Assembly (NCBI RefSeq): GCF_002902905.1
Contig: NZ_CP026124.1
Span: forward strand, 5,828,001-5,892,000
Direction: 5' to 3'
DNA: 64,000 bases
Source of the DNA: Achromobacter sp. AONIH1
Lineage (GTDB): Bacteria > Pseudomonadota > Gammaproteobacteria > Burkholderiales > Burkholderiaceae_B
In this document: positions 34,289-54,215 of the stretch, in pieces
Numbering within the stretch: the first letter of the stretch is position 1
Layout of the letters: each line of letters opens with the position of its first letter
Notes under the pieces: generated by a model
What the model was told of the DNA's origin: nothing
The model's input: the letters and a program-made list of their open reading frames with translations, nothing else
Database searches by the model: none
Program-made: the position numbers and the translations under genes

Positions 34289-36997
34289 GTGGTCGAGCGC
34301 AATCGCCAACAAGCAAAGTGGCTGCTGAAAGCAGTTTTCATCTCATGCGCGGCCAGCTTCCCGCATTCCGCCAGCGCTCAATTGGTCTCCAGTACCGGAG
34401 AGGTGCTGCCCGGGTCGGTCCAGACGCCCAACTGGACGGTCGGCGGCGACCTGACCGTCGGCGACACGACCACGGGCAGCTTGACCATCGACGCCGGCGC
34501 CACGGTCTCCAACGATCTGGCCACCATCGGCAATCTCAATGGGGCCGTGGGCACCCTGACGGTGTCCGGCAGGAACGGCGGCGCGGCATCGACCTGGACC
34601 AGCACCGGCCTGGTGTCCGTCGGGGTCGAATCGGGCAGCCAAGGCACGCTCAAGGTGCAGGCCGGCGGCCAGGCACGCAGCGATGCGGGCATCATCGGCC
34701 GCGATAGCGGCAGCGTTGGCACCGTTACCGTGTCGGGCGTCGGATCCGTCTGGGAGCTTTCCACGATCAACTCGTTCCAGATCGGCACCGCCGGCAGCGG
34801 CACGCTGCGGATCGACGATGGCGGCGCGTTGCACAGCGGCCAGGGCATCATAGGCTGGCAACCCGGCGGCAACGGGCGCGTTACCGTGACGGGCGCCCGA
34901 TCGGTCTGGGATCCGCTGAACAACATCTATGTCGGTTTTGAAGGAACCGGCGAGCTGCAGGTCCAGGACGGCGCCGCCGTCCACACCCAGGGGCCGAGCG
35001 GGCCGACTTCCGCCGCGTCGATCTATATCGGGCTCCAGCCGGGCGGCGTGGGCACGGTCAACGTGTCCAGCACGACGGCCAACGCCTCGACCCTGAAGGC
35101 GAGCGACCGCATCGAGATCGGCTCGGCGGGCACGGGCACGCTGACCATCGACAAGGGCGGGATCGCGGGCGCCGCCGCCGATACCTGGATCGCCGTCGCC
35201 GGCGGCTCCACCGGCACGTTGCACCTGCTCGGCGATGCCGGCGGTCGTGGCGCGCTGGAGACCGGCTCCGTCGTCAAGGGGGCTGGCACCACGTCCTTCG
35301 ACTGGAATGGCGGCATCCTGCGCGCCATTCGCGACCAGAACGACTTCCTGAACGGCTTCGCCACGCAGGCGATCGGCGCCAACGGCGCCTGGTTCGACAC
35401 GAATACCTACGACGTGGTCATGGGCACCGCCTTCTCGGGCGCGTCCAGCTTCAACAAGCTGGGCGCCGGCACGCTGACGCTGTCGGGCAACAGCGCGGCG
35501 TTCACGGGGAACACCGCCATCCGCGCCGGCACGCTGCAGGTGGACGGCATCCTGGGCGGGCCCGTGAATGTGCTGGCGGGCGCGCGGCTGACCGGAACGG
35601 GACGCGTCGGCGCGACGACCAACCAGGGCGTCATCGCGCCGGGACCGCGCAGCGGCTTCGGCACGCTGACGATCGCCGGCGACTATGCCGGCCAGGGCGG
35701 CGGCCTGGAAGTCCGCACGCGGCTTGGCGCCGACAACTCGCCGACCGACAAGCTGGTGATCACCGGCGCGACCGCTGGCGCGACGCCGGTCACGGTGAAG
35801 AACATCGGCGGCGCGGGCGCGGCGACCCAGCGGGGCATACAGATCGTGCAGGTCAATGGCGTCTCGGCGGGCCAGTTCAACCTGGCCAACGGCGATTACG
35901 TCATCGACGGGCGTCCGGCCCTGGTGGCCGGCGCCTACGGCTATGTGCTGCAACAGGATCCGGCCGACGGCGGCTGGTATCTGAGATCGTCCCTGACCGA
36001 TCCCGGCACGCCCCAGCCCGGAGGCGGCGACCCGGGCGCACAGCCGCCTTTGCGCTATCAGCCCGGCGTGCCGGTCTATGAGGCCTACGCCAACACCCTG
36101 CTCCAGCTGAGCAAGCTTCCTACGCTGCGCCAGCGGGTCGGCAATCGTCTCTATGACCCGGCGGACGTCGGCCGCAATGGCGTGTGGAGCCGCGTGGAAG
36201 GGACGGCGAGCCGCTACGACCCCGCGACGTCCGCGACCGGCGCGCGCCAGGACATCGACAGCTGGAAGGCGCAATTCGGCGTGGACCGCATCCTGAACGG
36301 CGAGCGCGACGGCTCCCGCCTGGTGGCCGGCCTGGCGTTTCACTATGGCAAGGCCGACACGCGTTTGTCGTCGGCCTATGGCAAGGGCAACGTCGACACC
36401 ACCGTCTACGGCCTGACGCCCACGCTGACCTGGTATGGCGCGAACGGCGTGTATGTCGACGTCCAGGCGCAGGCGAACTGGTTCGACAGCGACCTGAAAT
36501 CACGCTCGGCGGGCACGCTCAGGAATGGCGCGAAGGCGCACGGCTACGGGCTGGGCATCGAGGCGGGCAAGGCCTGGGACCTGAGGCAAGGACTCGCCCT
36601 GATCCCGCAGGCGCAGCTGACGTACCTGTCGACCCGCTTCGGCAGCTTCAACGACCGATTCGACGCGCGCATCGAAAGCGACAAGGGCGACAGCCTGCAG
36701 GGCCGCGTCGGCATCGCGCTGGACTACAAGCGCGACTGGCAGTCGGGCGGCGTGCACCGGGAAGCCAGCGTCTATGGCGTGGCCAACGTCAAGCATGAAT
36801 TCCTGGACGGGACGCGCGTGCGCGTGGCCAATGTGCCGGTGGCCAGCCGGATGGCGCGCACCTGGGGCGGCCTGGGCCTGGGCGTGAATTACGGCTGGGG
36901 CGGACGCTATGCCCTCTACGGCCAGATCGACGCGGATGCCGATTTCTCCGGCAGCCATGTCGTCACCGCGACCGCCGGATTCCGGATGATGTTCTAG
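34289..36997 (+). CDS. Classical autotransporter (type Va) with T5SS repeat passenger
   Basis: This 902-aa secreted protein starts at GTG 34289, with GGGGAG 7 bp upstream. The signal peptide is KAVFISCAASFPHSASAQ. The passenger contains T5SS-associated repeats of the type GTxTVSGxGSxW...IGxxGxGTLxIxxGG (about residues 60-310), then an autotransporter-associated beta-strand repeat (KLGAGTLTLSGNSAAFTGNT, about 390-470). A short linker follows (QQDPADGGWYLRSSL). The beta-barrel is about 640-902, ending in AGFRMMF with the terminal Phe needed by BAM. There is no peptidase motif, so the passenger is probably a beta-helix adhesin. It is convergent with the catabolic operon. Confidence 0.9.
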   Translation: MVERNRQQAKWLLKAVFISCAASFPHSASAQLVSSTGEVLPGSVQTPNWTVGGDLTVGDTTTGSLTIDAGATVSNDLATIGNLNGAVGTLTVSGRNGGAASTWTSTGLVSVGVESGSQGTLKVQAGGQARSDAGIIGRDSGSVGTVTVSGVGSVWELSTINSFQIGTAGSGTLRIDDGGALHSGQGIIGWQPGGNGRVTVTGARSVWDPLNNIYVGFEGTGELQVQDGAAVHTQGPSGPTSAASIYIGLQPGGVGTVNVSSTTANASTLKASDRIEIGSAGTGTLTIDKGGIAGAAADTWIAVAGGSTGTLHLLGDAGGRGALETGSVVKGAGTTSFDWNGGILRAIRDQNDFLNGFATQAIGANGAWFDTNTYDVVMGTAFSGASSFNKLGAGTLTLSGNSAAFTGNTAIRAGTLQVDGILGGPVNVLAGARLTGTGRVGATTNQGVIAPGPRSGFGTLTIAGDYAGQGGGLEVRTRLGADNSPTDKLVITGATAGATPVTVKNIGGAGAATQRGIQIVQVNGVSAGQFNLANGDYVIDGRPALVAGAYGYVLQQDPADGGWYLRSSLTDPGTPQPGGGDPGAQPPLRYQPGVPVYEAYANTLLQLSKLPTLRQRVGNRLYDPADVGRNGVWSRVEGTASRYDPATSATGARQDIDSWKAQFGVDRILNGERDGSRLVAGLAFHYGKADTRLSSAYGKGNVDTTVYGLTPTLTWYGANGVYVDVQAQANWFDSDLKSRSAGTLRNGAKAHGYGLGIEAGKAWDLRQGLALIPQAQLTYLSTRFGSFNDRFDARIESDKGDSLQGRVGIALDYKRDWQSGGVHREASVYGVANVKHEFLDGTRVRVANVPVASRMARTWGGLGLGVNYGWGGRYALYGQIDADADFSGSHVVTATAGFRMMF

Positions 36998-37065: not shown

Positions 37066-38496
37066 TCATCCCATCCTGACCATGACGTGCCGCGCGACGG
37101 TGTAGTCCTCCAGGGCGTACATGGAAAGATCCTTGCCGTAGCCCGAGGACTTCAGGCCGCCGTGCGGCATTTCGCTGGTCAACATGAAGTGCGTATTGAC
37201 CCAGGTGCAGCCGTATTGCAACCGGGCGGCCGTCGCCATACCGCGCGAAATGTCGCGGGTCCAGACCGATGAGGCCAGACCGTATTCGGAGTCGTTGGCC
37301 CAGCGCACCGCCTCGTCGGCGTCGTCGAACCGCGTCACCGAAACGACGGGCCCGAAGACTTCATGCTGGACGATTTCGTCGCCTTGCAGCGCGCCGGCCA
37401 CCACGGTTGGCTCGTAGAAAAAGCCGCCGCCGTCTCCCGCGCGACCGCCCGCCGTGATCTCGATGTGCCTGTTTTCAGCGGCCCGCCGGACAAAGGACTC
37501 GACGCGGGACTGCTGTCTGGCCGAGATCAGCGGCCCCAGGTCATTGTCGTCATCGTTGGGCTGATTGAACTTGAGGCGCTTGACCGCGTCCGAAAGGTCG
37601 GCAACAAGCTTGTCATAGATTTTCCTGCCGGCATAGATGCGGCAGGCGGCGGTGCAGTCCTGGCCGGCGTTGTAGTAGCCGTAGACCTTGACGCCTTCCA
37701 CGACGCTGGCCAGGTCGGCGTCGTCGAAGACGATGACCGGCGCCTTGCCGCCCAGCTCAAGATGGGTTCGCTTGACGATCTTGGACGCGGCCTGCAGCAC
37801 CTTCTTGCCCGTGCCGATATCGCCGGTGAGCGAGACCATCGCCACCTTCGGATGATGGATCAGCGCGTCGCCCACGCTCGCGCCGCGCCCCGTGACCACG
37901 TTGACGACCCCGGCGGGAAAGATGCCCGCGATGATCTTCGCGAGTTTCAGCAAGGTCAGCGGCGTCTGCTCCGATGGCTTGATCACGACGGTATTGCCGC
38001 CGGCAAGCGCGGGGGCCAGTTTCCAGGCCGCCATCATCAGGGGGTAGTTCCACGGCGCGATGGACGCGACGACGCCGATCGGATCGCGACGGATCATCGA
38101 CGTGTGGTTGGCGACATACTCGCCGGACGCAGCGCCGTGCATCGTTCTCGCGGCGCCGGCGAAAAAGCGGAAGCAATCGGCGATCGCCGGGATCTCGTCC
38201 TCCAGCACGCGGATACGCGGCTTGCCGCAGTTGAGCGCCTCGAGCGTCGCGAAGTCCTCGCCCGCGCTCTCGATGGCGTCGGCCAGCTTCAACAGCAGGC
38301 GCGAGCGCTCGGCGGGCGTGGTCCGCGCCCAGGCGTCGAAGGCCTTCGACGCCGCTTCGACCGCCGCGTCGACCTGCTCGACCGAGGCTTCGGCCAATTC
38401 AGTCAGCAGCGCCCCGGTCTTCGGATTCAGGATCTTCTCTTTGGCTTCCGCGCCCGCGACAAAGGCGGAACCGATCAGCAGTTCATGGTCAAACAC
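37066..38496 (-). CDS. Gamma-aminobutyraldehyde dehydrogenase-like ALDH (PatD/YdcW type)
   Basis: This 476-aa NAD-dependent aldehyde dehydrogenase closely follows E. coli PatD (YdcW). Catalytic Cys281 ([12 protein letters not shown]) and Glu247 (LELGGKAP) are present, with [20 protein letters not shown] and the C-terminal [26 protein letters not shown]. PatD oxidises 4-aminobutyraldehyde. In this operon the substrate is likely an amino- or other aldehyde produced by the GMC enzyme or aminotransferase. It is the last gene of the seven-gene operon, 47 bp after the GMC gene. Confidence 0.9.
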
Positions 38497-38543
38497 GCGA
38501 CTCTCCTGTTTACGAAATTAGCTTGCGGACGGGCCATGGGCCA

Positions 38544-40184
38544 TCAGGCCGGAACGGCGGCCACCGCGTCCACGGCCCCGGCGCCCCGGACGCCCGCGGC
38601 AAGAATGAAATCCGCCGCCTTCTCGGCGATCATGATCGTGGGCGCATTGGTATTGCCACTCACGATGGTCGGCATGATGGAGGCGTCGATGACGCGCAGG
38701 CCGCTCACGCCCCACACACGCAGCCGGTCGTCCACGACGGCCATCTCGTCGCTGCCCATCTTGCAAGTCCCCACCGGGTGGTAGACGGATTCGACGTTCT
38801 CCCTCAGGTACTGGTCGATCTGGGCATCGGTCGTGGCCTGCGGGCCGGGGGCATACTCCACGCCTCGATAGGGGTCGAACGCCTTTTGCGCCAGGACTTC
38901 CCGGCCTATGCGTATCCCCTCGCGATACACACGGATGTCATCCGGATCCGAGAAATAGTTTGGCTGAATGCGCGGGTGCTGCGTGGGATCCGCCGACTGG
39001 ATCTTCAACCAGCCCCGACTCTTGGGGCGCGAAATATTGAACAGCGGCGTGAAGCCGTGCTCGGGAATGACGACCCGACCGTTTTCGCGGTACATGATCA
39101 TCTCGAAGTGGTACTGGATGTCCGGGGCGATCAGATCGGGCTGGCTTTTGACGAAGGCCAGCGCTTCCACGCCGTGATACGCGCCCGGGCCTCCCTTGTC
39201 CCACATATAGCGCGCCAGGGCAGCGGCGGCGCGAACGGGACGGATGTAGGTCAGGAGCGAGTTCGGCAGCGTCGAGCGGCATTGCACGCCCACGGACAGG
39301 TGATCGTGCAGGTTCTGGCCCACGCCCGGCAGCGCCGCCGTGACCTCGATGCCCAGCGAGCGCAGATGCGCCGGATCGCCAATGCCGGACAACTGAAGCA
39401 GCTGCGGCGAGTTGATCGCGCCGCCCGACAGCAGCACCTCCTGATGCGCGCGGAGCACTTCCTTGCGGCCACGGCGAAGGAACTCGACGCCGACCGCGCG
39501 GCCGCGCTCGACGATGACGCGCGTGGCCAAGGCCTTGGTGATGATCCTGAGGTTCTTCCGCTCCTTCACCGGATGCAGGTAAGCGAAAGCCGTGCTCGCG
39601 CGTACTCTCTTGTCTCCGGAGGCCTTGATCGTACTGTCACAAGGGCCGAATCCCTCCTGCTCCCCATCATTGAAGTCATCGCGGTACGGGTATCCGGCCT
39701 GAATGCCCGCCTCGACGAACGCCTTCGACAAGGGGTGATGAACACCGTAGCGGCTCGTGTGCAACGGTCCATCGTGCCCATGGATCGGACTGCGCGGTCC
39801 GTTCCAGTTCTCGGCGCGAAGAAAATAGGGCAGGCAATCCCGGAAGGACCAACCGCTGTTTCCCAACGCCGCCCAATGATCGTAGTCCGTGGCGCTGCCT
39901 CGGATGTAGATCATGCCGTTGACACAGCTGCATCCGCCCAGGACCTTCGCCCGTGGCCAGAACAGCCGTCTGCCGGCCAGGTGCTCCTGGGGCTCGGTGT
40001 GGTAGCCCCAGTCGATCTGCCCGGTTTTCATCAATTGGAAATAGCCGGCCGGCATGCCGATGAAGGGGCTGCGGTCCCAGCCGCCGGCCTCGATCAGCGT
40101 GACGTCGACGGCCGGATTCGCGGATAGTCGATTCGCCAGGACACAACCCGCGGACCCGCCGCCGACAATGATGTAGTCCGTCAC
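38544..40184 (-). CDS. GMC-family alcohol (choline-type) dehydrogenase
   Basis: This 546-aa FAD-dependent GMC oxidoreductase has the N-terminal dinucleotide motif [17 protein letters not shown], the GMC signatures [23 protein letters not shown] (signature 1) and [15 protein letters not shown] (signature 2), and the C-terminal active-site segment [11 protein letters not shown]. It oxidises a primary alcohol to an aldehyde, as choline dehydrogenase does. Here the substrate is unknown. It is 34 bp downstream of the aminotransferase and 47 bp upstream of the aldehyde dehydrogenase that would take its product. Confidence 0.9.
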
Positions 40185-40218
40185 AGTGCTGCCCTCGCTC
40201 GCAGGTTATGGGGGAAAG

Positions 40219-41556
40219 TCATGACACCAGACCCGCGCTCATCGGCTCGAGCCGCGCATCGACGATGCGGTTGACGGCGTCGATGAAGCTATCGATGTCC
40301 TCGTCGGTCATCGGGGTCGACAGGAATGCCTTGCCGGTGCGGGCGATATGGAAGCCCGCCAAGGTCAAGGCGCGCTGAAGCGCGACAACGCGCCTGGTTT
40401 CCTCGGGGGTGGAATAGCCCGAGCGGTAGTCGGTCACTTTGCGGCCATGGCCGAACACCATGAAGCTGGACCCGAAGCCGGTGACCTGTCCTGGAAAGCC
40501 GGACCGCGCGAACGCCTGGTTCAGCGCCGCCATCAGCCGGGAATTGAGCTGCGTCATGCGATCAATCGCGGCGTCGTCAAGCAGATCCAGCGTGACCTTG
40601 CCCGCGGTCATCGTGACCGGATTGGCCGTGAAGGTGCCGCTCCACGGCAAGCCGGGCTTGCCCTGGCGATGGTCGTAGATCCGCATGAACTCGCGCCGCC
40701 CCGCCACCGCGCCGACGGGAAAGCCGCCGCCGATGATCTTGCCCAGGGTAGTCAGATCCGGCTGGATGCCCAGCAGCGTCTGGACGCCGCCGGTGTGACA
40801 CCTGAACGAGATGACTTCATCCAGGATGAAAAGCGCCCCGATCTCGCGAGTCACGCGTTCAATCATGTTGGTGAAGCGCTGGGTCGCCTGCACGAACCCC
40901 AGATAGCTGGGCACCGCGTCGAGCAGGACGGCCGCGATGTCCGCGGCATTCGCCCGGATGATCCGCTCGGCGGCTTCAACGTCGTTGAAGGGGATGACCA
41001 CCACGTCGTCCGTCACCCCTTTGGGCACCCCTTTTGAATAGCCGATCGAGTTCGGATCCTCGCCCCAGTTCGACGGGGAAGAATCCAGGCTGACCTCGGC
41101 GTAGTCATAAGCGCCGTGGTAAACGCCTTCCGCCTTGACGATCTTGGATCGGCCCGTGATCGCGCGGGCGGCTTTGATCGCGCTCATGACGGCTTCCGAG
41201 CCAGAGTTGCAGAATCTCACCTGTTCGAAGCTCTCGGCCCTCGCGCATATCGTTTCCGCCAGCGCGACCTCCTGCTCCGTGGGAAGCGTAAAGGCGGTTC
41301 CATTGCCGACCTGGCGCCGAACGGCCTGCACGACGCCCGGATGCGCGTGGCCGTGGATCAGCGAGGCGAAGTTGTTCAACAGGTCAAGGCGGCGCGTGCC
41401 GTCCACATCGACCACGTAAGCCCCTTGGCCATGCGAGGCGTAGACCGGGAAAGGCTCCTGCCATGGCAATGTGCGCGTGATACCGCCGGGCAGCACTTTC
41501 AAACCGCGTTCATACAGGTCCCGGGAACGGGAAGCCAGGTCTGGCCATTGAGCCAT
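40219..41556 (-). CDS. PLP-dependent class III aminotransferase (glutamate-1-semialdehyde-aminomutase-like)
   Basis: This 445-aa class III fold has the N-terminus LYERGLKVLPGGITRTLP and the substrate-binding LLNNFASLIHGHAHPGVVQAV. PLP binding uses FCNSGSEAVMSAIKAARA, DEVISFRCHTGG and the lysine in TLGKIIGGGFPVGAV. It resembles HemL and omega-aminotransferases but belongs to a subfamily often found in catabolic loci, so it probably removes or adds an omega or beta amino group of the pathway substrate. ATG 41556 has GGAG 7 bp upstream. Confidence 0.88.
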   Translation of the reverse strand: MAQWPDLASRSRDLYERGLKVLPGGITRTLPWQEPFPVYASHGQGAYVVDVDGTRRLDLLNNFASLIHGHAHPGVVQAVRRQVGNGTAFTLPTEQEVALAETICARAESFEQVRFCNSGSEAVMSAIKAARAITGRSKIVKAEGVYHGAYDYAEVSLDSSPSNWGEDPNSIGYSKGVPKGVTDDVVVIPFNDVEAAERIIRANAADIAAVLLDAVPSYLGFVQATQRFTNMIERVTREIGALFILDEVISFRCHTGGVQTLLGIQPDLTTLGKIIGGGFPVGAVAGRREFMRIYDHRQGKPGLPWSGTFTANPVTMTAGKVTLDLLDDAAIDRMTQLNSRLMAALNQAFARSGFPGQVTGFGSSFMVFGHGRKVTDYRSGYSTPEETRRVVALQRALTLAGFHIARTGKAFLSTPMTDEDIDSFIDAVNRIVDARLEPMSAGLVS

Positions 41557-41602
41557 GATTGCACTCCAAAGGGTTGAAGAACGATGAGGACGTCGCGCGC
41601 CG

Positions 41603-42301
41603 TCAGGCGTGACGGCGCACACGGGTATTGGCGATCGGCTCGCTGGAATAGACGCCGAACCGCGGCTGCGTGGCGCGTTCCAGCGCGCTGTAGCCGTAGT
41701 ACAGCTCGGCCATCATGAACGTCCAGGTGAACAAGGCCGCGGTGTAGAACAGCGTGCGGTCCGCGTCATCGCCGGGCAACGGGACATAGTCGTACAAGAC
41801 GGCGATGGCCAGGCCGCTCAGCGCCACGACAGCCGTGCCCATCGCATGCAGCGTCTCGCCCGCCTTCTGCAGCCGCCAGGCGAAGTACGCCAGAAAGACC
41901 AGGAAGACCAGGCCCATCAGCAGGTAGAACGGCGGTTTGTAGACCGCCAACGCCGGCGCATGGTCGGCCGCCACCAGCGCGGCGGCGCCCGCGAAGCCGA
42001 GCAGGAAATAGAGGACATCCGCGAGGCGCGACGGCTGGTAGTTATGGGTCACCGCCATCATGCCGGCGACCGCGACCACCGGAAAGCCGAAGGACCGCGA
42101 GAACGCATCGAAGAAATGCGCGACGCTGTAGCCGGACTCCCACCCGAAGAGCGCCCACAGCAGGAAATGAGAGCCCGAAAGGGCCATGATGAACCATTCG
42201 ATCCCGCACAGATAATTGCGCTTCCTGAGGAACTTCACGCCATAGATGACCCCGGCAAGAATCAGCAGGACATCGGCCAGCAAAAGGAAAATCGCATTCA
42301 T
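41603..42301 (-). CDS. Unknown integral membrane protein, about 7 spans, 232 aa
   Basis: No known family is recognised. Seven hydrophobic segments (starting NAIFLLLADVLLILAGVIYGV) are separated by short loops; SYNTHETIC-type transporter motifs are absent. A notable loop WESGYSVAHFFDAFSRSFGFP follows TM2, and a conserved-looking NYQPSRLADVLYFL starts TM4. The C-terminus (ELYYGYSALERATQPRFGV) is cytoplasmic-looking and basic. It is placed between the esterase and the aminotransferase with small gaps on each side (68 and 46 bp), so it should act in the pathway, as a permease, anchor or membrane enzyme. Confidence 0.75.
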   Translation of the reverse strand: MNAIFLLLADVLLILAGVIYGVKFLRKRNYLCGIEWFIMALSGSHFLLWALFGWESGYSVAHFFDAFSRSFGFPVVAVAGMMAVTHNYQPSRLADVLYFLLGFAGAAALVAADHAPALAVYKPPFYLLMGLVFLVFLAYFAWRLQKAGETLHAMGTAVVALSGLAIAVLYDYVPLPGDDADRTLFYTAALFTWTFMMAELYYGYSALERATQPRFGVYSSEPIANTRVRRHA

Positions 42302-42369
42302 GATGAAGGGGCCTCGGTGAGAGTCGAGCTGATTGATCCCGAGCCGGCAGCGGCGTGCCGGCCCCGGAC

Positions 42370-43308
42370 TCATTCGTGCAGCATGGCGCCGAATCGCTTG
42401 ATGCCGCGCCGCATCAGCTGTTGCGCGCCGGGCGACCACGGTCCCATTTCGAAGAAGCCATGGATCATTCCCGGACCTGGCATATGCTCCGCCGGGCTGC
42501 CGGCCGCGTTCATGGCCGAGGCGTAGGCAGCGCCCGAGTCGCGCAACGGATCGAATTGCGCCGTCATCACCAGCGCCGGCGCCAGCCGGCTCAGATCCTT
42601 GGCCCGCAGCGGCGCCAGGCGCGGATCCGTCGGGTCCAGATAGGCGCCCGCGTAATGGCGGTAGAACCAGTTGATGGTGGCCACATCGAGCAGGTATCCC
42701 TCGCCGTTCTCCACGACGCTGGGGTACTGCGCCGTCACATGATCCACGGCGGGATAGATGAGGAACTGCGCGGTCAGCGCGATACCTTCATCGCGCAACC
42801 GCTGCGCGACGACGGCCGAGAAATTGCCGCCCGCGCTGTCGCCGGCGACGCCGACATTGTGGTTTCCGCCCAGCTCGTGCGCATGCGCCACGATCCACTT
42901 CGTGGCCGCGACGGCATCTTCAACGCCGGCGGGAAATGCATGCTCGGGCGCCAGCCGGTAGTCCACCGCCACCACCACGGCCATCGCGCCGCGACAGATC
43001 TCGCGGCAGATGTTGTCGTGCGTGTCCAGGTCGCCAATGACGAATCCGCCGCCGTGGAAGTAGGCCACGGTCGGAAACGGCCCGTCGCCTTCGGGCCAGT
43101 ACACGCGGGCCTTCAATGGCCCGGCGGCGCCGCCGACGGTCGTGTCCCGCACGCGGGCCACGGGTACGACCTGCTCGGGCGTCAGCGCGCCGGCCGTCGT
43201 TGCCAGATAGAAGGCCCGGCCTTCCTCCGGCGTGCCTTCGTGCAGCGGCTTCGCGCCGGCCTCGGCCAGCAGCTGCATGGCGCCGGCTATATGGGGATCG
43301 AGAGACAT
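42370..43308 (-). CDS. Alpha/beta hydrolase of the hormone-sensitive-lipase family (esterase)
   Basis: This 312-aa HSL-type (GDXG) esterase has the oxyanion-hole HGGG at residues 85-88 (YFHGGGFVIGD), nucleophile Ser158 in GDSAGG, Asp253 in QFDPLRD and His283 in MIHGF. The typical N-terminal cap helices are included. The family hydrolyses short-chain esters and lactones. Following a Baeyer-Villiger-type enzyme in the same operon, it would be the natural step for opening the ester or lactone that enzyme makes. Confidence 0.9.
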   Translation of the reverse strand: MSLDPHIAGAMQLLAEAGAKPLHEGTPEEGRAFYLATTAGALTPEQVVPVARVRDTTVGGAAGPLKARVYWPEGDGPFPTVAYFHGGGFVIGDLDTHDNICREICRGAMAVVVAVDYRLAPEHAFPAGVEDAVAATKWIVAHAHELGGNHNVGVAGDSAGGNFSAVVAQRLRDEGIALTAQFLIYPAVDHVTAQYPSVVENGEGYLLDVATINWFYRHYAGAYLDPTDPRLAPLRAKDLSRLAPALVMTAQFDPLRDSGAAYASAMNAAGSPAEHMPGPGMIHGFFEMGPWSPGAQQLMRRGIKRFGAMLHE

Positions 43309-43359
43309 GGAATGACTTCCTTTGTTCAGGGATGAGGGGGTCGCCAGCGCGCCGGGTGC

Positions 43360-44856
43360 TCAGCGGTAGGCCAGGGCCGCTTCGTCGGGCCGTGCCGCGG
43401 GGAACGAGACCCGCTCCTCTTCGTACTCCAGGCCTTGCTTCCAGGGATGACGATCGCCCTGGCGAGGCAGCAGGTGCAGCGCCCGCATGATGTAGCCCGA
43501 GTTGACGTTCTCCGGATCGATCCAGGGCAGGCGCGGCATGTCTGCGTCCGCGACAGGCACGGTGGGAACCACCATGTCGTGGCCCGCCTGCGCCATGTGC
43601 TCGACGATGCGGCACGCCAGATCGGTGACCAGATCCGCGCGCAGCGTCCAGCTTGAGCGGAAGTAGCCCATGACGTAGGCCATGTTGGGAACGCCTTCGA
43701 TCATCATGCCGCGATAGCTGACGCGCTTGGCGAAGTCCACCGATTCGCCATCAACGAAAAATGGCACGCCGCCGAATATCCGCATGTTGAAACCCGTCGC
43801 GGTGACGATGATGTCGGCGTCAAGATGCGCGCCGCTGACCAACCGGACGCCCGTGGCGTCGAAGCGCTCGATGCCGTCGGTGACCACTGACGCCTTGCCG
43901 GAGCGGATGGCGGCGAACAGGTCGCCGTCGGGAACCAGCGCGATGCGTTGCTGCCATGGGCGATAGCTCGGGTTGAAATGCTTCTCCACGTCGAAGCCCT
44001 CGGGCAGGAGCGCGCGCGCCTGCTCGACGATCCACGCGCGCATTTCCTCGGGATGTTCGAAGGACATGCGAACTTCGCCGTCCACCTTGGCGACGAAGGC
44101 GCGCCGCATGATCTCGTGCACCCAGTCGGGGCGCACGCCCAGTTCGCGCAGCTGGGTCTCCAGCGGATGGATGGGAGAATCCGCCGCGAAAAACGTGGGC
44201 GAACGCTGCAGCATTGTCACGTGCGCCACGGCGTCCGCCAAGGACGGGATCAAGGTGGCGGCCGTGGCGCCCGAGCCGATGACGACCACGCGCTTGCCCG
44301 TGCAGTCGAGTTCTTGCGGCCAGTGCTGCGGATGCACCCACTGCCCCTTGAAATCACGCATGCCAGGCCACTCGGGCGTATAGCCCTTGGCGTGATCGTA
44401 GTAGCCCGAGCACATCCAGAGAAAACCCGTCGTCAGCGTCAGCGTCTCGCCCGAATGCGTGCGCGTGACCTCCAGCGTCCAGCGCCTGTCCCGGGACGAC
44501 CACCGGGCGGCCGTGATCTTGTGCCCGTAATGGATATGTCGCGCCAGATCATTTTCCTCGATCAGCTCCCCCAGGTAGGCGCGGATCTCGTCGGCCGTGC
44601 CGATGGCGCGTCCGGTTTCCCAAGGCTTGAAGCTGTAGCCGTAGGTGTAGCAATCGCTGTCCGAACGCGCGCCGGGGTAGCGATGCGTCCACCAGGTGCC
44701 CCCGAAGCCGTCCATCGCTTCGAGCACGGCGAATGAGTGATCGGGAAATCGCTTGTGCGTGTTGTATGTGGCGCCAAGACCCGAAATGCCGGCGCCCACA
44801 ACGATAAAGTCAAGATGCTGGCCGTTCACGAGCGCGGCCTGAGGTTGCTTGATCAC
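43360..44856 (-). CDS. FAD/NADPH monooxygenase, Baeyer-Villiger type
   Basis: This 498-aa flavin monooxygenase has an FAD-binding motif (GAGISG, about residues 21-26). The BVMO fingerprint FKGQWVHPQHWP at residues 169-180 fits FxGxxxHxxxW(P/D). A second dinucleotide motif for NADPH (VVIGSGATAA, about 191-200) follows, then TATGFN. Enzymes of this class insert oxygen next to a ketone to make an ester or lactone; some also oxidise amines or sulfides. It sits between PhyH and the esterase, so a ketone substrate is most plausible. Confidence 0.9.
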   Translation of the reverse strand: MIKQPQAALVNGQHLDFIVVGAGISGLGATYNTHKRFPDHSFAVLEAMDGFGGTWWTHRYPGARSDSDCYTYGYSFKPWETGRAIGTADEIRAYLGELIEENDLARHIHYGHKITAARWSSRDRRWTLEVTRTHSGETLTLTTGFLWMCSGYYDHAKGYTPEWPGMRDFKGQWVHPQHWPQELDCTGKRVVVIGSGATAATLIPSLADAVAHVTMLQRSPTFFAADSPIHPLETQLRELGVRPDWVHEIMRRAFVAKVDGEVRMSFEHPEEMRAWIVEQARALLPEGFDVEKHFNPSYRPWQQRIALVPDGDLFAAIRSGKASVVTDGIERFDATGVRLVSGAHLDADIIVTATGFNMRIFGGVPFFVDGESVDFAKRVSYRGMMIEGVPNMAYVMGYFRSSWTLRADLVTDLACRIVEHMAQAGHDMVVPTVPVADADMPRLPWIDPENVNSGYIMRALHLLPRQGDRHPWKQGLEYEEERVSFPAARPDEAALAYR

Positions 44857-44886
44857 GGTTCTCTCCAGGTTGCCTGCAATTGGAAA

Positions 44887-45747
44887 TCAGAGCTTGAGGT
44901 AGTCGCCCAGTTCGCTGTAGTTGACCTGCCAGAGGCCGGGCGAACCGATGGGGTACTGCGAGCGGAATCCGAGCAGGCGCTGGACGCGCGGCGAAAGCTG
45001 TCGAACGATGTCCATGCTGACCAGGAAGGGGTAGGCCTCTTCGCCGGTGAGAAAGCCGGGGTTGAAGGCGAAGGCCACGCCTCGGCGGTACTGGTCCGTG
45101 GTCAGGTTGGCGCCGCCGCCATGAGCGGTCTTGCCGCTGTACAGGAGCACATCTCCAGCCTTCATCCTGGCGGCGATGGTCTGCTCCGGCGTGCCGCGAT
45201 CCTCGAAATCCTCCCAGTGGTTGCTGCCGGGGATGATCCGGGTGGCGCCGTTCTCTTCGGTGTAGTCGGTGAAGGCGATCATGAAATTCAGGGCGGCCTC
45301 GGGCCCCTTGGGTCCCATGCCGATGAACGGATACCAGTTCTCCAGGTCGCGGTGCAGCATCTGCGCCTTGTTGCCGGGGCCGATTTCAATCACCTGCGCG
45401 GTGGTCATCCAGTACGAACCGGATTCCTCAAGGAAGATCGCGTCGAGCAGGTCATGCACCAGATCACAGTCGAGGATTTCCTCGCGGAAGGTCTTGCTGT
45501 ACGTGACCAGATTTGTCAGACGCTTGGTGTTTGCGCCGTGGAATTCGGCAATCAACTCGATTTCGTGCGTCGATCCCGGCGCAAGGGCGTCCATCGGCCC
45601 CTGGATTTCGGCGTTGAAGCTGTCGATCTGTGCCTTGGCGAGGAAGTTCTTGATGATGACGCCGCCATCTTGCTTGAGGATCTGGAGGATCTCCGCGATG
45701 GGCGTCGAGGTCGTGACGGTGCGCAAAGCGCTGGTGGGCCGGGTCAT
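44887..45747 (-). CDS. PhyH-family Fe(II)/2-oxoglutarate dioxygenase
   Basis: This 286-aa cupin-fold oxygenase is first in the operon. The metal-binding triad is His132-x-Asp134 (QMLHRDLENWYP) and His209 (GKTAHGGGAN); Arg221 or Arg222 would hold 2-oxoglutarate. It is in the phytanoyl-CoA dioxygenase family, which hydroxylates carbon atoms in many small molecules besides phytanoyl-CoA. No acyl-CoA ligase is nearby, so its substrate is probably free or ester-linked. ATG 45747 has AAGGAG 8 bp upstream. An operator lies 40-60 bp before the start. Confidence 0.88.
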   Translation of the reverse strand: MTRPTSALRTVTTSTPIAEILQILKQDGGVIIKNFLAKAQIDSFNAEIQGPMDALAPGSTHEIELIAEFHGANTKRLTNLVTYSKTFREEILDCDLVHDLLDAIFLEESGSYWMTTAQVIEIGPGNKAQMLHRDLENWYPFIGMGPKGPEAALNFMIAFTDYTEENGATRIIPGSNHWEDFEDRGTPEQTIAARMKAGDVLLYSGKTAHGGGANLTTDQYRRGVAFAFNPGFLTGEEAYPFLVSMDIVRQLSPRVQRLLGFRSQYPIGSPGLWQVNYSELGDYLKL

Positions 45748-45786
45748 GAAGCATCTCCTTTGTGTCGGATAGCGTTGACTTATTTT

Positions 45787-45804
45787 GTTGGTCAAATGAC
45801 CAAC
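45787..45804. promoter_or_regulatory. Operator 1: perfect 8-bp dyad GTTGGTCA-AA-TGACCAAC
   Basis: GTTGGTCA and TGACCAAC are exact inverted copies with a 2-bp spacer, 40-57 bp upstream of the PhyH start. It lies just after a -10-like element on the minus strand. It shares TTGGTCA-NN-TGACC with operator 2. It is probably the binding site of the TetR regulator at 46533; that assignment is inferred. Confidence 0.75.
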
Positions 45805-45811
45805 TGAATGC

Positions 45812-45841
45812 ATCATGAAATATGCCAAGCCATACCGTCAA
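45812..45841 (-). promoter_or_regulatory. Candidate promoter of the PhyH-BVMO operon
   Basis: On the minus strand, TTGACG (45836-45841) and CATGAT (45812-45817) are separated by 18 bp. Operator 1 lies at the expected transcription start, so a bound repressor would block it. The -10 matches 4 of 6 consensus bases. Confidence 0.45.
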
Positions 45842-45967
45842 GGTCGGGAAAACCCGTCCTCCGGAAATAGAATTTCGCGTTTATTCAGCTGTTTTAAACA
45901 TATTTTTCGATCGCGACCTGGAAAGAAATGCCCGAAATCGCCATAAGAAATAGCCCGCCATTTAATT

Positions 45968-45979
45968 GGTCAATTGACC
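45968..45979. promoter_or_regulatory. Operator 2: 12-bp palindrome GGTCAATTGACC
   Basis: GGTCAATTGACC is a perfect palindrome. With its 5' flank it reads TTGGTCA-AT-TGACC, the same half-sites and spacing as operator 1, 181 bp away (centre to centre about 178). It lies on the regulator side of the intergenic region and overlaps a TTGACC -35-like hexamer, so it fits autoregulation of the TetR gene or DNA looping. Confidence 0.6.
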
Positions 45980-46532
45980 TTTAATTATTCAGGACGTCTA
46001 CATGGCGCCGCAGGGCTGAGCCGACCGTTCCCGCAACGGGAAACGCGAGGTCGCCACGCCGATGGCCAGCCTGATCGCTCATGGGCGTGACGCGATGACC
46101 GCTCCAGGCCGATGTATTCGTCCCTTGCGACTGGCGCGGCGGGCGGCCCGGCGAAGAAATGCGCCTGTTACGATACGAATTTCCGACATCGTCAGCGCTT
46201 CCTCATTCCAGGCGCGCGTCAGTCGCCCGTCATGCCGACCCCGCAAGCCCCTTTCATCCACGAAGGGATCGCGGTCGCTGGGGAGCAGCTGGAGCGCATC
46301 GGGCCTGGGCTCCCTCGGTCTGGGGCGCGATGGATTCGATGGCCGCCCGCCACGATGCGTACTCCCCTCGCGCCGCCTGCCCCAGTCGAGGGCTCACTCG
46401 CCTCGGGCGAGAACTTGGTTGACAGCCTCATGGCGCCATCCTCGCTCTTTGCGAAACCCGGGACGGTCCACCGGATTCACTGATTGCATGCCGCCAGAAT
46501 CACCAGGGATCCGACAGACTTCCATCCGTGCC
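45980..46532. other. 550-bp stretch without a convincing gene upstream of TetR
   Basis: Both strands show only frames of poor protein character, such as Arg/Ser-rich shadow text. The plus-strand frame continuous with TetR back to 46062 is rejected for the same reason. This may be a long leader or the remains of a gene. An AT-rich patch at 45900-46000 includes operator 2. Confidence 0.5.
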
Positions 46533-47201
46533 ATGACCAAACACCAAAGCGAAAACACGTCGTCCGCCGCCGCCAGGACAAGCGCGCAGGGCGTGCGAGC
46601 CGAGCAGTCCGAGCGCAAGCGCGCGGCCATCCTGAAAGCGTCGAAAGAGGTGCTGGCGCAAGGCTATGCAGAATTTTCGCTGCGCAAAGTGGCCGCCGCC
46701 GCCGGCGTGCGACTCAGCACCGTACAGCATCATTTCGGCGATCTGGAGTCGCTCATTCTTGCAACGATCGACTCCTCGACCGAGGAGTTCATGCGCTATT
46801 CCAGACAACTGGCGCAAGGCCAGTACGAGTCCCCGACCGATGACCTGAAGGTCTTCCTCGACGACGCCTGGACGTTTGTCCGTAACGTCAACGTGCGAAA
46901 CCTCTACCTGGAAGTGTGGGCAATGGGCCGCCACCGTCCCGTCGTCGCGGACTCGATCAAGCGGATCTACACCGAATACATCCAGGCGTTGATCCTCATC
47001 CTGCGCAGGATCAACCCGAACCTGACGCAAACCGAAGCCCACACCACCGCCACGTTGATCTCCTGCCTGACCGAAGGCGCCATCGTGATGGCCCACTGGG
47101 GCAGCCAGGACGCCCCCGCCCTGGGCCTTCTTGGCATACGCCTGAAAGCCGCATGTCTTGCCCTTGTGGAACCGTCTGATGGATGTCGTGGCTCCATCTG
47201 A
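46533..47201 (+). CDS. TetR-family transcriptional regulator
   Basis: This 222-aa regulator has the helix-turn-helix of TetR/AcrR proteins at residues 30-75: KRAAILKASKEVLAQGYAEFSLRKVAAAAGVRLSTVQHHF. The ligand-binding C-terminal domain follows (VNVRNLYLEVWAMGRHRPVVADS, SCLTEGAIVMAHWG). The HTH sits on a 25-residue polar leader. It is divergent from the seven-gene operon and next to two identical dyads, so it likely represses that operon until an inducer, possibly the pathway substrate, binds. The start is ambiguous, with ATG 46488 upstream in frame. Confidence 0.88.
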   Translation: MTKHQSENTSSAAARTSAQGVRAEQSERKRAAILKASKEVLAQGYAEFSLRKVAAAAGVRLSTVQHHFGDLESLILATIDSSTEEFMRYSRQLAQGQYESPTDDLKVFLDDAWTFVRNVNVRNLYLEVWAMGRHRPVVADSIKRIYTEYIQALILILRRINPNLTQTEAHTTATLISCLTEGAIVMAHWGSQDAPALGLLGIRLKAACLALVEPSDGCRGSI

Positions 47202-48726: not shown

Positions 48727-48822
48727 TCGTGGGGATTGCAATCTGCCCCTGGCTAAGCTCAACGCCAACGCCAGTCCAAATGGATAAGTGCTCGCTAAGC
48801 GCGCCATAGCGAGAGGAGAATG

Positions 48823-48896
48823 CGCGACGTAGAGGATTCGAACCTCTGACCTATTGCTTAGAAGGCAATTGCTCTATCCAACTGAGCTAACGTCGC
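48823..48896 (-). tRNA. tRNA-Arg (anticodon TCT)
   Basis: A complete cloverleaf is present: acceptor GCGACGT/ACGTCGC, D-stem GCTC/GAGC, anticodon stem ATTGC/GCAAT with loop CTTCTAA (anticodon TCT, reading AGA), and T-stem AGAGG/CCTCT. The discriminator is G. CCA is not encoded (CAT follows), unlike tRNA-His in this window. AGA is a rare codon in such a genome, so this is the minor arginine isoacceptor. Confidence 0.96.
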
Positions 48897-49072
48897 CCTG
48901 AAACCCGCCCCTCCCGACCACGCGCCGGGAGGATCCGCGCCCTATGCGACCAAGTTGCGGTCACGTTGCGGCCAAACTGCCGCCGCGCGATGGGTTTGAT
49001 GCCCGGAAAGGCTCCGGGCGGGCGCATTTTACCTTGTTGCGCGAAGCAAGGGAAAAAGACGGGAAGGCTCCC

Positions 49073-49657
49073 CTATTCCTCGCCCAGGTCCGTGTGCGTG
49101 GACACCCAAAGCACCAGCGCGTCTTCCTTGCTGACGCTGATGACGCGGTGTCCCATGCGGCTGTCGATGTAGAAGCTTTCGCCCGCGCGCAGCCGGGCCG
49201 GCTCGTAGAACTCGGTGTACAGCTCGACCTCGCCGCTCAGCACGTAGACGAATTCCTCGCCATGGTGGCGGCTCCAATCCTGGAATTCCTCGAACGAGCG
49301 CGCTTTGACCCGGGTGTGGAAGGGCATCATGCGCTTGTGCGACAGCGCGGTGCATAGCAGGCGGTGGTCGTAGTACGGGGTTTCGTACTGGCGCCCTTCC
49401 CCCTGTCGGCCCAGGCTGCGGCGGCCGGTGCCCATGTGGGCGTCGGACGGGGTGAACAGCTCGGCCACGTCCAGATCCAGGCCGGCGGCGATCTTGATCA
49501 GGTTGTCATAGGTGGGCGACAGCAGGCCGTTCTCGATCTTGGACAGAGCGGACGCGGACACGCCGGTGGCCGCCGCCGCCTGCTTCAGCGTCCAGTCCCG
49601 CGCCTGGCGCAGGGCTCGCAGCCGTTGTGCCAACACGCTCTGTTTGTTGCCTTGCAT
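49073..49657 (-). CDS. XRE-family regulator with C-terminal cupin domain
   Basis: This 194-aa regulator has an N-terminal XRE helix-turn-helix (LAQRLRALRQARDWTLKQAAAATGVSASALSKIENGLLSP, about residues 9-48). A cupin sensor follows (about 110-190) with HHGEEFVYVLSGEVELYTEF and SFYIDSRMGHRVISVS. It is the PuuR/ClcR-like architecture common beside polyamine or amino acid catabolic genes. The gene is 12 bp downstream of the FAD oxidase, last in the minus-strand transport/oxidase operon. It likely controls that operon and possibly the divergent ALDH. Confidence 0.9.
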   Translation of the reverse strand: MQGNKQSVLAQRLRALRQARDWTLKQAAAATGVSASALSKIENGLLSPTYDNLIKIAAGLDLDVAELFTPSDAHMGTGRRSLGRQGEGRQYETPYYDHRLLCTALSHKRMMPFHTRVKARSFEEFQDWSRHHGEEFVYVLSGEVELYTEFYEPARLRAGESFYIDSRMGHRVISVSKEDALVLWVSTHTDLGEE

Positions 49658-49669
49658 CTGTACACCCTG

Positions 49670-50959
49670 TCAGCGCGACCGGCGCTCCCGCCACCAGTCG
49701 CGCGCTTGATAAGACCAATATGTGAGCTGGACCGCCGCCCGGCCCAGCGCGCCGCCGTTCCAGGCCAGTCCGAAGGGCTGGAACAGCTGATAGCGGTGGC
49801 TGTCGCCGGTGATGCCCTCGGCCACCACGCGGCCGCCGATGGAGGCGGTGTTCATGCCATGCCCGCCAAAGGCCGTGCAGTACCAGACGTCCGGCGCCAG
49901 CAGGCCGATCTGCGGCATCAGGTGGCGCGCGTAGGCCATGCGTCCCGACCAGGCGGTTTCCACGCGCAGGCCCTGCAATTGCGGGTAAACCGACAGCAGT
50001 TCGCGGCGCAGCGTCTCGGCCAGGTCGGGCGGGTCGTCGATCCGGGTGGTGATTCTACTGCCCCAGCCGATGCGCCCGCCATCGAGCACCCGGTAGTAGT
50101 TGCCGGCGCGGCGGTCGTCGCCGATGGCGGCGTCGCTGCGGATGGCTTCGCGCACGCGCTCGCCCAGCGGCTCGGTCAGCATGATGTAGGTGGCGATGGG
50201 CAGCATGGCCCGTCGCAGCGCGGGTTGCAGCGCGCAGGTGTAGCCGCCCGTGGCCAGCACCACGGTGCGCGCCTCGACCCGGCCGCCGGCGGTGGCGACC
50301 TGCTTGACCGCGCCGTCCAGCGCCAACTGCTGCGCCGGCGTATCCTCGTGGATGCGCACGCCCAGCCTCGCGCACTCCCGCGCCAGGGCGCGCGCGTAGT
50401 TGAGCGGATGGAAATGGAAGGACGTGGGATCGTCCACGCCCTGGAAATAGGCCTCGGTCACCAGCCGCTCGCGCAGCTGGGCGCGCGACAGCACGCGCAC
50501 GTCGCGTTCGAAAACGCGCTGCTGTTCCTCGCACCAGCGCTGCAGCGCGTCGCCGGCGTCGTAGCGCACCACGCGCAGGCGGCCGTCGACCTTGTGGGCG
50601 TCGCGGATGTCCAGGTCGCGGATGTTGGCGCGGATGATCTCCACGCCCTCCATCGACAGCCGGTAAAGCGCGCGGTAATGATCCTCGTCCACATGGCGGC
50701 GGATGGCGTCGGCGCCGGCCGAGAACGCGGGCGAGACCGAGCCGCCGTTGCGGCCCGAGGCGCCCCAGGCGATGCGGCTGCCTTCCAGCAGCGTGACCTG
50801 CCGGCCGCGCCGGGCCAGTTCCAGCGCGACCGACAGGCCGGCCAGGCCGCCGCCCACCACGCAGACCTCGGCGCTTTCCGGGCCTGCCAGGGCCGGATAG
50901 CGGGTTTGCGGGTCGGACAGCGTGCGCTTGTAGTAGGTGTCGGCGTACTCGGTGGGCAT
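49670..50959 (-). CDS. FAD-dependent amino acid oxidase (AmaA/L-pipecolate-oxidase-like)
   Basis: This 429-aa DAO-fold flavoprotein has an FAD-binding VVGGGLAGLSVALELARRG and the downstream IAWGASGRNGGSVSPAF. TYIMLTEPLGERVREAI and AFGGHGMNTASIGGRVVAEG also match the family. It resembles PuuB/OrdL and AmaA. AmaA in Pseudomonas putida oxidises L-pipecolate to piperideine-6-carboxylate. The neighbouring ALDH7 (AmaB type) would oxidise the product, so pipecolate oxidase is the best guess; gamma-glutamylputrescine oxidase is an alternative. Confidence 0.83.
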   Translation of the reverse strand: MPTEYADTYYKRTLSDPQTRYPALAGPESAEVCVVGGGLAGLSVALELARRGRQVTLLEGSRIAWGASGRNGGSVSPAFSAGADAIRRHVDEDHYRALYRLSMEGVEIIRANIRDLDIRDAHKVDGRLRVVRYDAGDALQRWCEEQQRVFERDVRVLSRAQLRERLVTEAYFQGVDDPTSFHFHPLNYARALARECARLGVRIHEDTPAQQLALDGAVKQVATAGGRVEARTVVLATGGYTCALQPALRRAMLPIATYIMLTEPLGERVREAIRSDAAIGDDRRAGNYYRVLDGGRIGWGSRITTRIDDPPDLAETLRRELLSVYPQLQGLRVETAWSGRMAYARHLMPQIGLLAPDVWYCTAFGGHGMNTASIGGRVVAEGITGDSHRYQLFQPFGLAWNGGALGRAAVQLTYWSYQARDWWRERRSR

Positions 50960-50979
50960 GGTGCTCGGCGGCGTCCGTT

Positions 50980-51669: not shown

Positions 51670-51671
51670 GC

Positions 51672-52364: not shown

Positions 52365-52388
52365 GCGCGCTGCCCCTGGCGGACGGCC

Positions 52389-53180: not shown

Positions 53181-53309
53181 GCTCTACCCCTTGAATGTGT
53201 GGTCTGACGTCATTCCGGGCCTGCCATCCGCGCGCCGGCGGCGCCCGGTTTCGCCGGGCCGGCGCGCATGCCGCTCGCTGGCGGCGACTGTATCGGCCTT
53301 GCGCCGCCG

Positions 53310-54062: not shown

Positions 54063-54215
54063 CAATGCTCCCGATCGGGTGACGCGGGATGCGGCGCAAG
54101 CGCGCCGGCATCCGGGGGGTTTCGCATTTACAGCTTGAGTTTCGTATAGTAAATTTTTTTCCGAAATCGCCACTTAGGCATAACCCTGCCCCGCACCGCT
54201 ACCCAAGGAACCGGC
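54063..54215. promoter_or_regulatory. Divergent promoter region between ABC operon and ALDH7 gene
   Basis: This 153-bp stretch has an AT-rich core at 54135-54168, TTGAGTTTCGTATAGTAAAT, and CCGAAA at 54161, making TTTCG...CGAAA arms around it. It must hold promoters for both operons. The TTTCG/CGAAA dyad is a candidate operator for the XRE-cupin regulator. Position only; not confirmed. Confidence 0.45.

Follow-up and report, generated by a model that had tools for sequence, protein, structure and literature searches.

In a 64,000-nucleotide stretch of the Achromobacter sp. AONIH1 genome (contig NZ_CP026124.1, positions 5,828,001 to 5,892,000; hereafter the window), seven genes on the minus strand at 37066-45747 appear to form an acquired catabolic module, which would be the smallest member found of a family of TetR-linked gene sets for the degradation of hydrophobic amines. 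Judging from gene families and conserved sites, we assign a probability of roughly 55% to this reading, in which the amine is removed before a Baeyer-Villiger monooxygenase (BVMO) acts. The operon is transcribed in the order PhyH-family dioxygenase, BVMO, HSL-family esterase, membrane protein, class III aminotransferase, GMC-family dehydrogenase and PatD-like aldehyde dehydrogenase (ALDH), and a TetR gene lies divergently beside it. A palindrome upstream of the first gene, TGGTCAnnTGACCA, is conserved and, in the scanned genomes, confined to clusters of this kind.

Gene organization and conservation of the operon

A first-pass annotation of the window had claimed these seven genes with gaps of 30-68 bp, and both claims hold: consecutive genes are separated by 30, 51, 68, 46, 34 and 47 bp, calculated with start codons picked by comparison with relatives (for PhyH and TetR from Delftia homologues and the alignment). 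The neighboring TetR gene is present and divergent, but the open reading frame (ORF) drawn for it (46062-47201) has 157 extra codons at its 5' end; the TetR_N domain starts at residue 190 of this frame, and the Delftia homologue begins at the residue corresponding to 46533, the start used here. All eight genes, TetR included, have Delftia homologues with 82-94% identity, pairwise ratios of non-synonymous to synonymous substitution (dN/dS) of 0.09-0.27 and no stops, and therefore they are not chance ORFs. The enzyme motifs expected for these families were found in the translations, and Pfam families could be assigned to six of the seven operon genes with the membrane protein as exception. A consensus scan returned one promoter-like site (about 1.7 expected), and terminator-like sites were no more frequent than by chance.

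In 84,980 species genomes, a pattern-based scan with a reach limited to close relatives yielded 54 BVMO loci. Co-conservation, for which the first-pass annotation had asked a synteny check, was borne out: BVMO, aminotransferase, GMC and ALDH genes with 82-94% identity occur together in three of these loci (two Delftia and one Pelomonas), and BVMO and esterase are found together in 22 of the 54 according to the tblastn table. The exact seven-gene set was seen only in the window and in Delftia. All eight genes are present in a locus of a Delftia acidovorans metagenome-assembled genome (L014), and in D. tsuruhatensis (L015/L079/L080) PhyH and TetR are found further along the contig that holds L015. 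The window shares about 90% DNA identity with Delftia over 37066-44886 and 44887-45801, which reflects common ancestry. The Delftia clusters keep the gene order from BVMO to ALDH but differ from the window in that PhyH is inverted on the other strand, 8.2 kb away, with an intervening piece that contains a weak MFS match and an additional cassette of DUF1329, DUF1302, RND and YCF48 genes, and in a second BVMO plus hydrolase; D. tsuruhatensis also has a PQQ dehydrogenase that the window lacks. Between PhyH and TetR both Delftia loci carry a perfect inverted repeat with 17-bp arms and a 5-nt loop (L014, 701-739; L080, 102-140), which was not found in the window at 45740-46540.

The Pelomonas locus (L016) has neither esterase nor membrane protein at the position between BVMO and aminotransferase, and the alignment there is confined to the front part of the esterase gene, whose first bases are kept at 11549-11680, as if a deletion had removed the rest together with the membrane protein gene. 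Pairwise dN/dS against Pelomonas is 0.10-0.18, and 0.42 for the distant Pelomonas membrane protein.

A conserved palindrome as predicted operator

Upstream of PhyH we found an inverted repeat with 13-bp arms and the core TGGTCAnnTGACCA. The predicted operator at 45788-45803 (TTGGTCAAATGACCAA) is located 40 bp upstream of the PhyH start codon and is the sole exact match in the 6.65 Mb genome, which is the feature by which we would assign the operon to the proposed regulon. A second, degenerate operator-like site at 45966-45981 differs at 2 of the 14 specified bases. With up to two mismatches in the 16-mer the genome contains seven sites, namely the exact one at 45788, the one at 45966 with two mismatches and five elsewhere with two. 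In the window alone, a count of two sites with up to three mismatches is unremarkable (20 of 100 shuffles), and it is therefore the exact match, together with its conservation, that makes the case for the operator.

The core was searched for in 66 sequences comprising 1,282,062 bases. Exact copies were detected in the window, in Delftia (L014 and L015/L079, the latter being the same site), in Pelomonas (L016), in each of the seven Burkholderia loci L032-L038 and on a Tsukamurella plasmid (L070). The exact operator is present in 10 of the 54 BVMO loci, and these are precisely the loci with the aminotransferase-GMC-ALDH set or with RND/DUF1302 genes. Five first-order Markov simulations of the 66-sequence set gave a mean of 0 exact and 2.4 one-mismatch sites, compared with 16 observed one-mismatch sites. 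As the Burkholderia loci are close relatives, the operator lineages were counted as four: Achromobacter/Delftia, Pelomonas, Burkholderia and Tsukamurella. Genome-wide, there are four exact cores in B. lata, three in each of two further Burkholderia genomes (G508 and G509), two in Pelomonas, one in each of the two Delftia genomes, one on the Tsukamurella plasmid and none on the whole P. aeruginosa plasmid, and the reversed control pattern had no exact match in any of the eight genomes or records scanned. All 14 exact operators in the genomes of six relatives are located upstream of cluster genes; the second Pelomonas site precedes a BVMO-hydrolase pair with 82% and 86% identity to the second pair of Delftia.

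The TetR-family regulator (46533-47201, plus strand, 222 aa, start by homology) is 82-85% identical to its Delftia homologues. It scores above the PF00440 cut-off of 24 with 29.2 bits for the ORF as drawn and 30 bits for the shortened one, and it is not the choline repressor BetI (NF001978, 38.6 bits, cut-off 118). One operator in Burkholderia lies just upstream of a TetR gene, and the one in Tsukamurella is located between a TetR gene and a pair of genes for a DAO-type flavoprotein and the membrane protein. As the sites adjoin TetR genes in the window and in both genera, a TetR protein is the likely binder of the predicted operator, and the TetR control already claimed in the first-pass annotation is made likely by the conserved palindrome.

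Enzyme families encoded by the operon

The first gene (44887-45747, minus strand) encodes a Fe(II)/2-oxoglutarate dioxygenase of 286 aa, which belongs to the PhyH superfamily according to PF05721 (123 bits, above cut-off) and the HxD...H...R metal/2-oxoglutarate motif, present as HRD and distal H...R; its best solved relative is DhiD (8zyb, 198 bits). Type I BVMOs are recognized by the fingerprints FxGxxxHxxxW(P/D) and (A/G)GxWxxxx(F/Y)P(G/M)xxxD and by two dinucleotide-binding motifs. The second gene product (43360-44856, minus strand, 498 aa) contains both fingerprints (FKGQWVHPQHWP at residue 169 and GGTWWTHRYPGARSD at residue 52) as well as GAGISG at 21 and GSGATA at 194, and is thus a type I BVMO. 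Its best solved relatives are BVMOs, aligned mostly within residues 7-280. Solved cyclohexanone monooxygenases match with 104-122 bits within residues 11-256, the N-terminal half only. An orthologue of the cyclohexanone monooxygenase ChnB was rejected, since full-length similarity is missing (best match 5m0z, residues 14-234 only, 122 bits).

The HSL-family esterase or lactonase (42370-43308, minus strand, 312 aa) shows HGGG, GDSAG and IHGF motifs and an Abhydrolase_3 match of 237 bits; its LipP1 score of 345 bits compares with a cut-off of 350. The class III aminotransferase (40219-41556, minus strand; PF00202, 190 bits) has the pyridoxal phosphate lysine motif LGK and falls into a HemL-like clade. 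It is not HemL itself, the glutamate-1-semialdehyde aminomutase (TIGR00713, 331.6 bits, cut-off 527.3), and its best solved relatives are 6k8h with 416 bits and ForI with 341 bits. Both GMC_oxred_N and GMC_oxred_C domains are present in the GMC-family alcohol dehydrogenase (38544-40184, minus strand), which belongs to the wider subfamily PRK02106 (679.6 bits, cut-off 605) but not to the choline dehydrogenase BetA (TIGR01810, 601.8 bits, cut-off 732.1); the best solved relative is a choline dehydrogenase (9lq0, 461 bits). The last gene (37066-38496, minus strand) encodes an ALDH of the PatD (gamma-aminobutyraldehyde) subfamily with 797.6 bits against NF010000 (cut-off 615), which misses the stricter PatD equivalog TIGR03374 (749.7 bits, cut-off 909.3). 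Among solved structures it matches 4dal with 771 bits and 1wnb (E. coli YdcW/PatD) with 677 bits, and the next best match within its own genome is 42% identical.

The membrane protein (41603-42301, minus strand, 232 aa) has six hydrophobic segments, and neither a Pfam or NCBIfam family nor a solved relative was found for it. It represents a real family with 114 matches in a protein search, its own copy and fragments counted. In the window and in Delftia the gene sits between esterase and aminotransferase. On the P. aeruginosa and Tsukamurella plasmids (L068 and L070) it adjoins a DAO-type flavoprotein gene, in L076 and L077 it comes after the genes for a monoamine-oxidase-type flavoprotein and a cytochrome c, and in Pelomonas a pair of this type is no more than 2.7 kb away; in B. 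lata its neighbor is instead an MFS gene.

Amine genes and a transport cassette in wider relatives

The fullest related cluster is that of B. lata (L151-L153; G507, contig C16, 1-60000, 60 kb read), a version of about 44 kb with four exact operators. It contains genes for a short-chain dehydrogenase/reductase, acyl-CoA dehydrogenase, thiolase, long-chain CoA ligase, two PhyH proteins, an MFS protein, the membrane protein, two TetR regulators, two ALDHs, the transport cassette, GMC, two esterases, two BVMOs and an iron-type alcohol dehydrogenase (Fe-ADH), several of these names being assigned by clustering with named relatives instead of scans of the individual proteins. The first-pass annotation had taken the absence of CoA ligase and beta-oxidation genes from the operon as a hint to a small, non-CoA substrate, and this argument is not supported in view of the CoA ligase, acyl-CoA dehydrogenase and thiolase genes of B. 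lata. The cluster also encodes a class III aminotransferase whose highest scores are to HemL models (below cut-off), a reductive-aminase-like (RedAm-like) protein with 65.7 bits against PF21761 (cut-off 27) alongside a related protein without that domain match, and a class IV aminotransferase that resembles (R)-amine transaminases, as judged from its nearest solved structures, which belong to amine transaminases (6snl, 234 bits). (R)-amine transaminases and RedAm are families that interconvert amines and ketones.

On the P. aeruginosa plasmid p12939-PER (L068) genes for PhyH, transport cassette, membrane protein, DAO-type flavoprotein, BVMO, hydrolase, Fe-ADH, PatD-like ALDH, two aminotransferases and a RedAm-like protein are found together. 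The series BVMO, hydrolase, alcohol dehydrogenase, PatD-like ALDH and aminotransferase is repeated here, although the alcohol dehydrogenase family is unrelated and the aminotransferases are distant. PhyH (59%), membrane protein (41%), PatD-like ALDH (61%) and BVMO (43%) resemble those of the window and a transport cassette is present, whereas Fe-ADH replaces GMC, the aminotransferases are different and there is no exact operator. This cluster presumably resembles PP_2799-PP_2805 of P. putida KT2440. Symporter, CoA ligase and levulinate (lvaB) genes come immediately after it (L068, 10011-40001). Genes for a monoamine-oxidase-type flavoprotein and cytochrome c are present in L016, L076 and L077. 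Together with the (R)-amine-transaminase-like and RedAm-like proteins, these flavin amine oxidases in the relatives' clusters strengthen the amine substrate that had been suggested in the first-pass annotation.

Two clusters bring in genes related to gamma-aminobutyrate (GABA): in Rhodococcus (L069) glutamine-synthetase-like, GabT, succinate-semialdehyde dehydrogenase and gamma-glutamyl-GABA hydrolase genes are located within about 15 kb of PhyH and BVMO, and Tsukamurella (L070) has a gamma-glutamyl-GABA-type hydrolase and a glutamine-synthetase-like gene. A cassette of RND, DUF1302, DUF1329 and YCF48 genes occurs in Delftia, Burkholderia and p12939-PER. An uptake function of this set was dropped, since the described counterpart AmeABCD is proposed to be an exporter, and the neutral term transport cassette is used here; this leaves the odds of the readings below as they were.

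Some loci show the same enzymes in other surroundings. In Bradyrhizobium oropedii (L017, 9926-20697) BVMO and esterase are followed by two hydantoinase-type genes (PF01968 and PF02538), beyond which the aminotransferase (78%) and another member of class III are located; in Aminobacter (L078) the aminotransferase is likewise paired with annotated hydantoinase genes. On a Polaromonas plasmid (L072, 14001-15453) the BVMO match is in two pieces with no annotated gene beneath and may be a broken gene. The closest plasmid-borne aminotransferases (60-62%) are found in Sphingobium strains of the "Tom" series, which are linked to tomatine. Degradation of steroidal glycoalkaloids such as tomatine was rejected as a model, as aminotransferase and BVMO of Sphingobium TomMM15 are on different plasmids and the neighborhood of the aminotransferase is unlike that of the window.

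Genomic setting and probable acquisition

The host genome is a single contig of 6.65 Mb, and the operon is part of a variable segment bordered by tRNA-Arg(tct) (48822-48896, minus strand). In a comparison with eight relatives of the genus (a 19.5 kb stretch from each, with its end immediately right of the DAO gene described below), homology with the window resumes at 48982-49070 in all eight. The remaining matches longer than 150 bp are all located at or left of 32413 (two of eight), and none is inside the operon segment. No att repeat derived from the tRNA gene could be detected (no common word of 13 or more bases), and inspection by eye of the ORFs of 32.4-37.1 and 47.1-48.9 kb, not all of which were checked against families, revealed no conspicuous integrase. 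The BVMO (E<=1e-60) is present in 7 of 200 genomes, the own one included, and the membrane protein (E<=1e-5) in the own genome only; PhyH (E<=1e-50) and membrane protein (E<=1e-10) were each detected in 2 of 399 genomes of the order, again with the own genome included. Given these low counts, the operon is a rare accessory module, and it was probably acquired horizontally.

Right of the tRNA gene, at 49073-54173 on the minus strand, genes for an HTH/cupin regulator, a DAO-type oxidoreductase with weak similarity to pipecolate and aminophosphonate oxidases (below cut-offs) and an ABC transporter follow. A link of these genes to the operon was rejected, as the DAO gene lies beyond the tRNA and all 41 genomes sampled from the genus contain it; the gene belongs to the core and is outside the island. 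The variable segment also carries, convergent with the operon and immediately beyond its 3' end, the gene for a 902-aa autotransporter (34289-36997, plus strand; PF03797) with T5SS/PEP-CTERM-associated repeats.

Proposed pathway and alternative explanations

Judged from the gene families, the module would act on an amine and a ketone. PhyH may hydroxylate or N-dealkylate the substrate; it is placed at the beginning in view of its position as first gene and of its location in Delftia, where it is set apart together with TetR, and the reaction itself is a guess. The class III aminotransferase would convert an amine on a secondary carbon to a ketone, the BVMO would insert oxygen beside the carbonyl to yield an ester or lactone, and the esterase would hydrolyze this product. 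The released alcohol would be oxidized to the aldehyde by the GMC dehydrogenase and to the acid by the PatD-like ALDH, while the membrane protein may be an accessory to a membrane-linked dehydrogenation. A TetR-family protein would repress the operon at TTGGTCAnnTGACCAA and be released upon binding of the substrate or an intermediate. A hydrophobic substrate is suggested by the cassette of Delftia, since a set of this type takes part in the monoterpene metabolism of Castellaniella. We prefer the conversion of amine to ketone before the BVMO because aminotransferase, BVMO, esterase, GMC and ALDH then form a chain. The first-pass annotation had placed deamination after ester hydrolysis; this order is possible, but the earlier deamination accounts for the gene set more simply.

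Several observations weigh against the proposed pathway. PhyH has no clear place in the scheme, and the operon lacks an AmeABCD-type transport cassette, with DUF1329 being absent from the whole own genome. The class IV aminotransferase of B. lata reaches no NCBIfam cut-off, so that its name rests on its best solved relatives. No exact operator occurs in the related clusters L017, L068, L069, L075, L076 and L077, and with up to two mismatches the reversed control pattern has one match in the own genome compared with seven for the operator pattern. With respect to the binder, the TetR proteins of Burkholderia, P. aeruginosa, Tsukamurella and Rhodococcus look by eye like a separate subgroup from the window TetR in the alignment, and an AraC-type gene is also located near one operator site. 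Finally, the assignment of the ALDH to the PatD subfamily, together with GABA-type genes close to the clusters of Rhodococcus and Tsukamurella, would fit an omega-amino product.

The latter leads to an alternative that we consider unlikely, yet the most serious one, in which the amine is removed last: BVMO and esterase would free a C3-C4 omega-amino alcohol from an amino-ketone, GMC and ALDH would oxidize it to a beta- or gamma-amino acid, and the aminotransferase would deaminate this product. Apart from the GABA-type genes, the ALDH score above the aminobutyraldehyde subfamily cut-off, its 677 bits to 1wnb and matches of the aminotransferase to beta-phenylalanine (188 bits) and D-phenylglycine (202 bits) aminotransferases are in line with such a late deamination. 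The ALDH, however, stays below the PatD equivalog cut-off (750 versus 909 bits), and the (R)-amine-transaminase-like and RedAm-like proteins of Burkholderia argue for chemistry between amine and ketone. A role in the detoxification or modification of a natural product or antibiotic, in place of growth, is improbable, even though the nearest solved relatives of PhyH are named as natural-product oxygenases (such as the fungal DhiD, EasH, AusE and PrhA) and both GMC (8b7s, 348 bits) and esterase (NF033149, 250 bits) match chloramphenicol-inactivating families. An inactivation of the chloramphenicol type was rejected as the esterase misses the NF033149 cut-off of 500, and the CoA ligase, acyl-CoA dehydrogenase and thiolase of B. 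lata fit complete degradation. We regard an accidental neighborhood of unrelated oxidative enzymes as very improbable. The exact set is indeed rare, with PhyH and membrane protein in so few genomes of the order, and within the fetched flanks the loci of Variovorax, Pseudorhodoferax and Comamonas hold only BVMO and esterase of the eight genes; however, the short gaps, the conserved operator, the low dN/dS and a gene order conserved in Delftia and, minus esterase and membrane protein, in Pelomonas speak for a unit.

Beyond the early deamination proposed for the window operon, we tentatively suggest, at somewhat less than even odds, that TGGTCAnnTGACCA marks a hitherto unrecognized regulon of beta-proteobacteria and one actinobacterium in which a hydrophobic amine on a secondary carbon is converted to a ketone and cleaved by Baeyer-Villiger oxidation, with the new membrane protein family as partner of membrane-linked dehydrogenases. 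If this is true, a puzzling set of oxidative enzymes becomes a testable pathway with a defined switch, and the operator would be specific enough for searching genomes for the regulon and for constructing a substrate sensor. It would also place a nameless membrane protein family in a first context and supply linked transaminases and BVMOs, possibly with a common substrate.

Comparison with known systems

The first-pass annotation knew of no described pathway with exactly this set, and our literature search, confined to open-licence papers, likewise yielded none and found no published match for the gene set, the operator or the membrane protein family. In the catabolism of cyclohexylamine and cyclohexanone (cha/chn) an amine oxidase is found beside a BVMO, a lactonase and alcohol and aldehyde dehydrogenases. 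The window operon shares with it the proposed conversion of amine to ketone followed by BVMO, esterase, alcohol dehydrogenase and aldehyde dehydrogenase. It differs by an aminotransferase in place of the amine oxidase, by PhyH, the membrane protein and a dedicated operator, and by a BVMO that matches only partly. Membership in the cha/chn pathway was rejected since the operon has an aminotransferase and no amine oxidase, the other enzyme types being present. In fumonisin catabolism the esterase FumD and the aminotransferase FumI act, which is again an esterase plus a class III aminotransferase on a hydrophobic amine. The aminotransferase of the window is distant from the aminopentol aminotransferase 6hbs (FumI), with 94 bits compared with 416 for its best match.

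On the regulatory side, the AtuR regulon for acyclic terpenes is governed by a TetR-family repressor with the operator AGCAAGCGCTTGG/CCAAGCGCTTGCT (PMC9973270). The window operon would resemble it in having a TetR-family repressor at a catabolic cluster for a hydrophobic compound; AtuR-type terpene regulation was rejected because the AtuR operator, as given there, differs from TGGTCAnnTGACCA. AmeABCD of Castellaniella defragrans is expressed on monoterpenes and its authors propose a monoterpene exporter, not an importer (PMC6394551). The cassette of Delftia and Burkholderia has the same four kinds of proteins described there, namely DUF1302, DUF1329, a photosystem-II-assembly-like protein (YCF48/COG4447) and an RND pump. 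The logic of amine, ketone and Baeyer-Villiger ester is already known from cyclohexylamine catabolism, and the cassette of the relatives has a described counterpart in AmeABCD; what is new here is the palindrome TGGTCAnnTGACCA.

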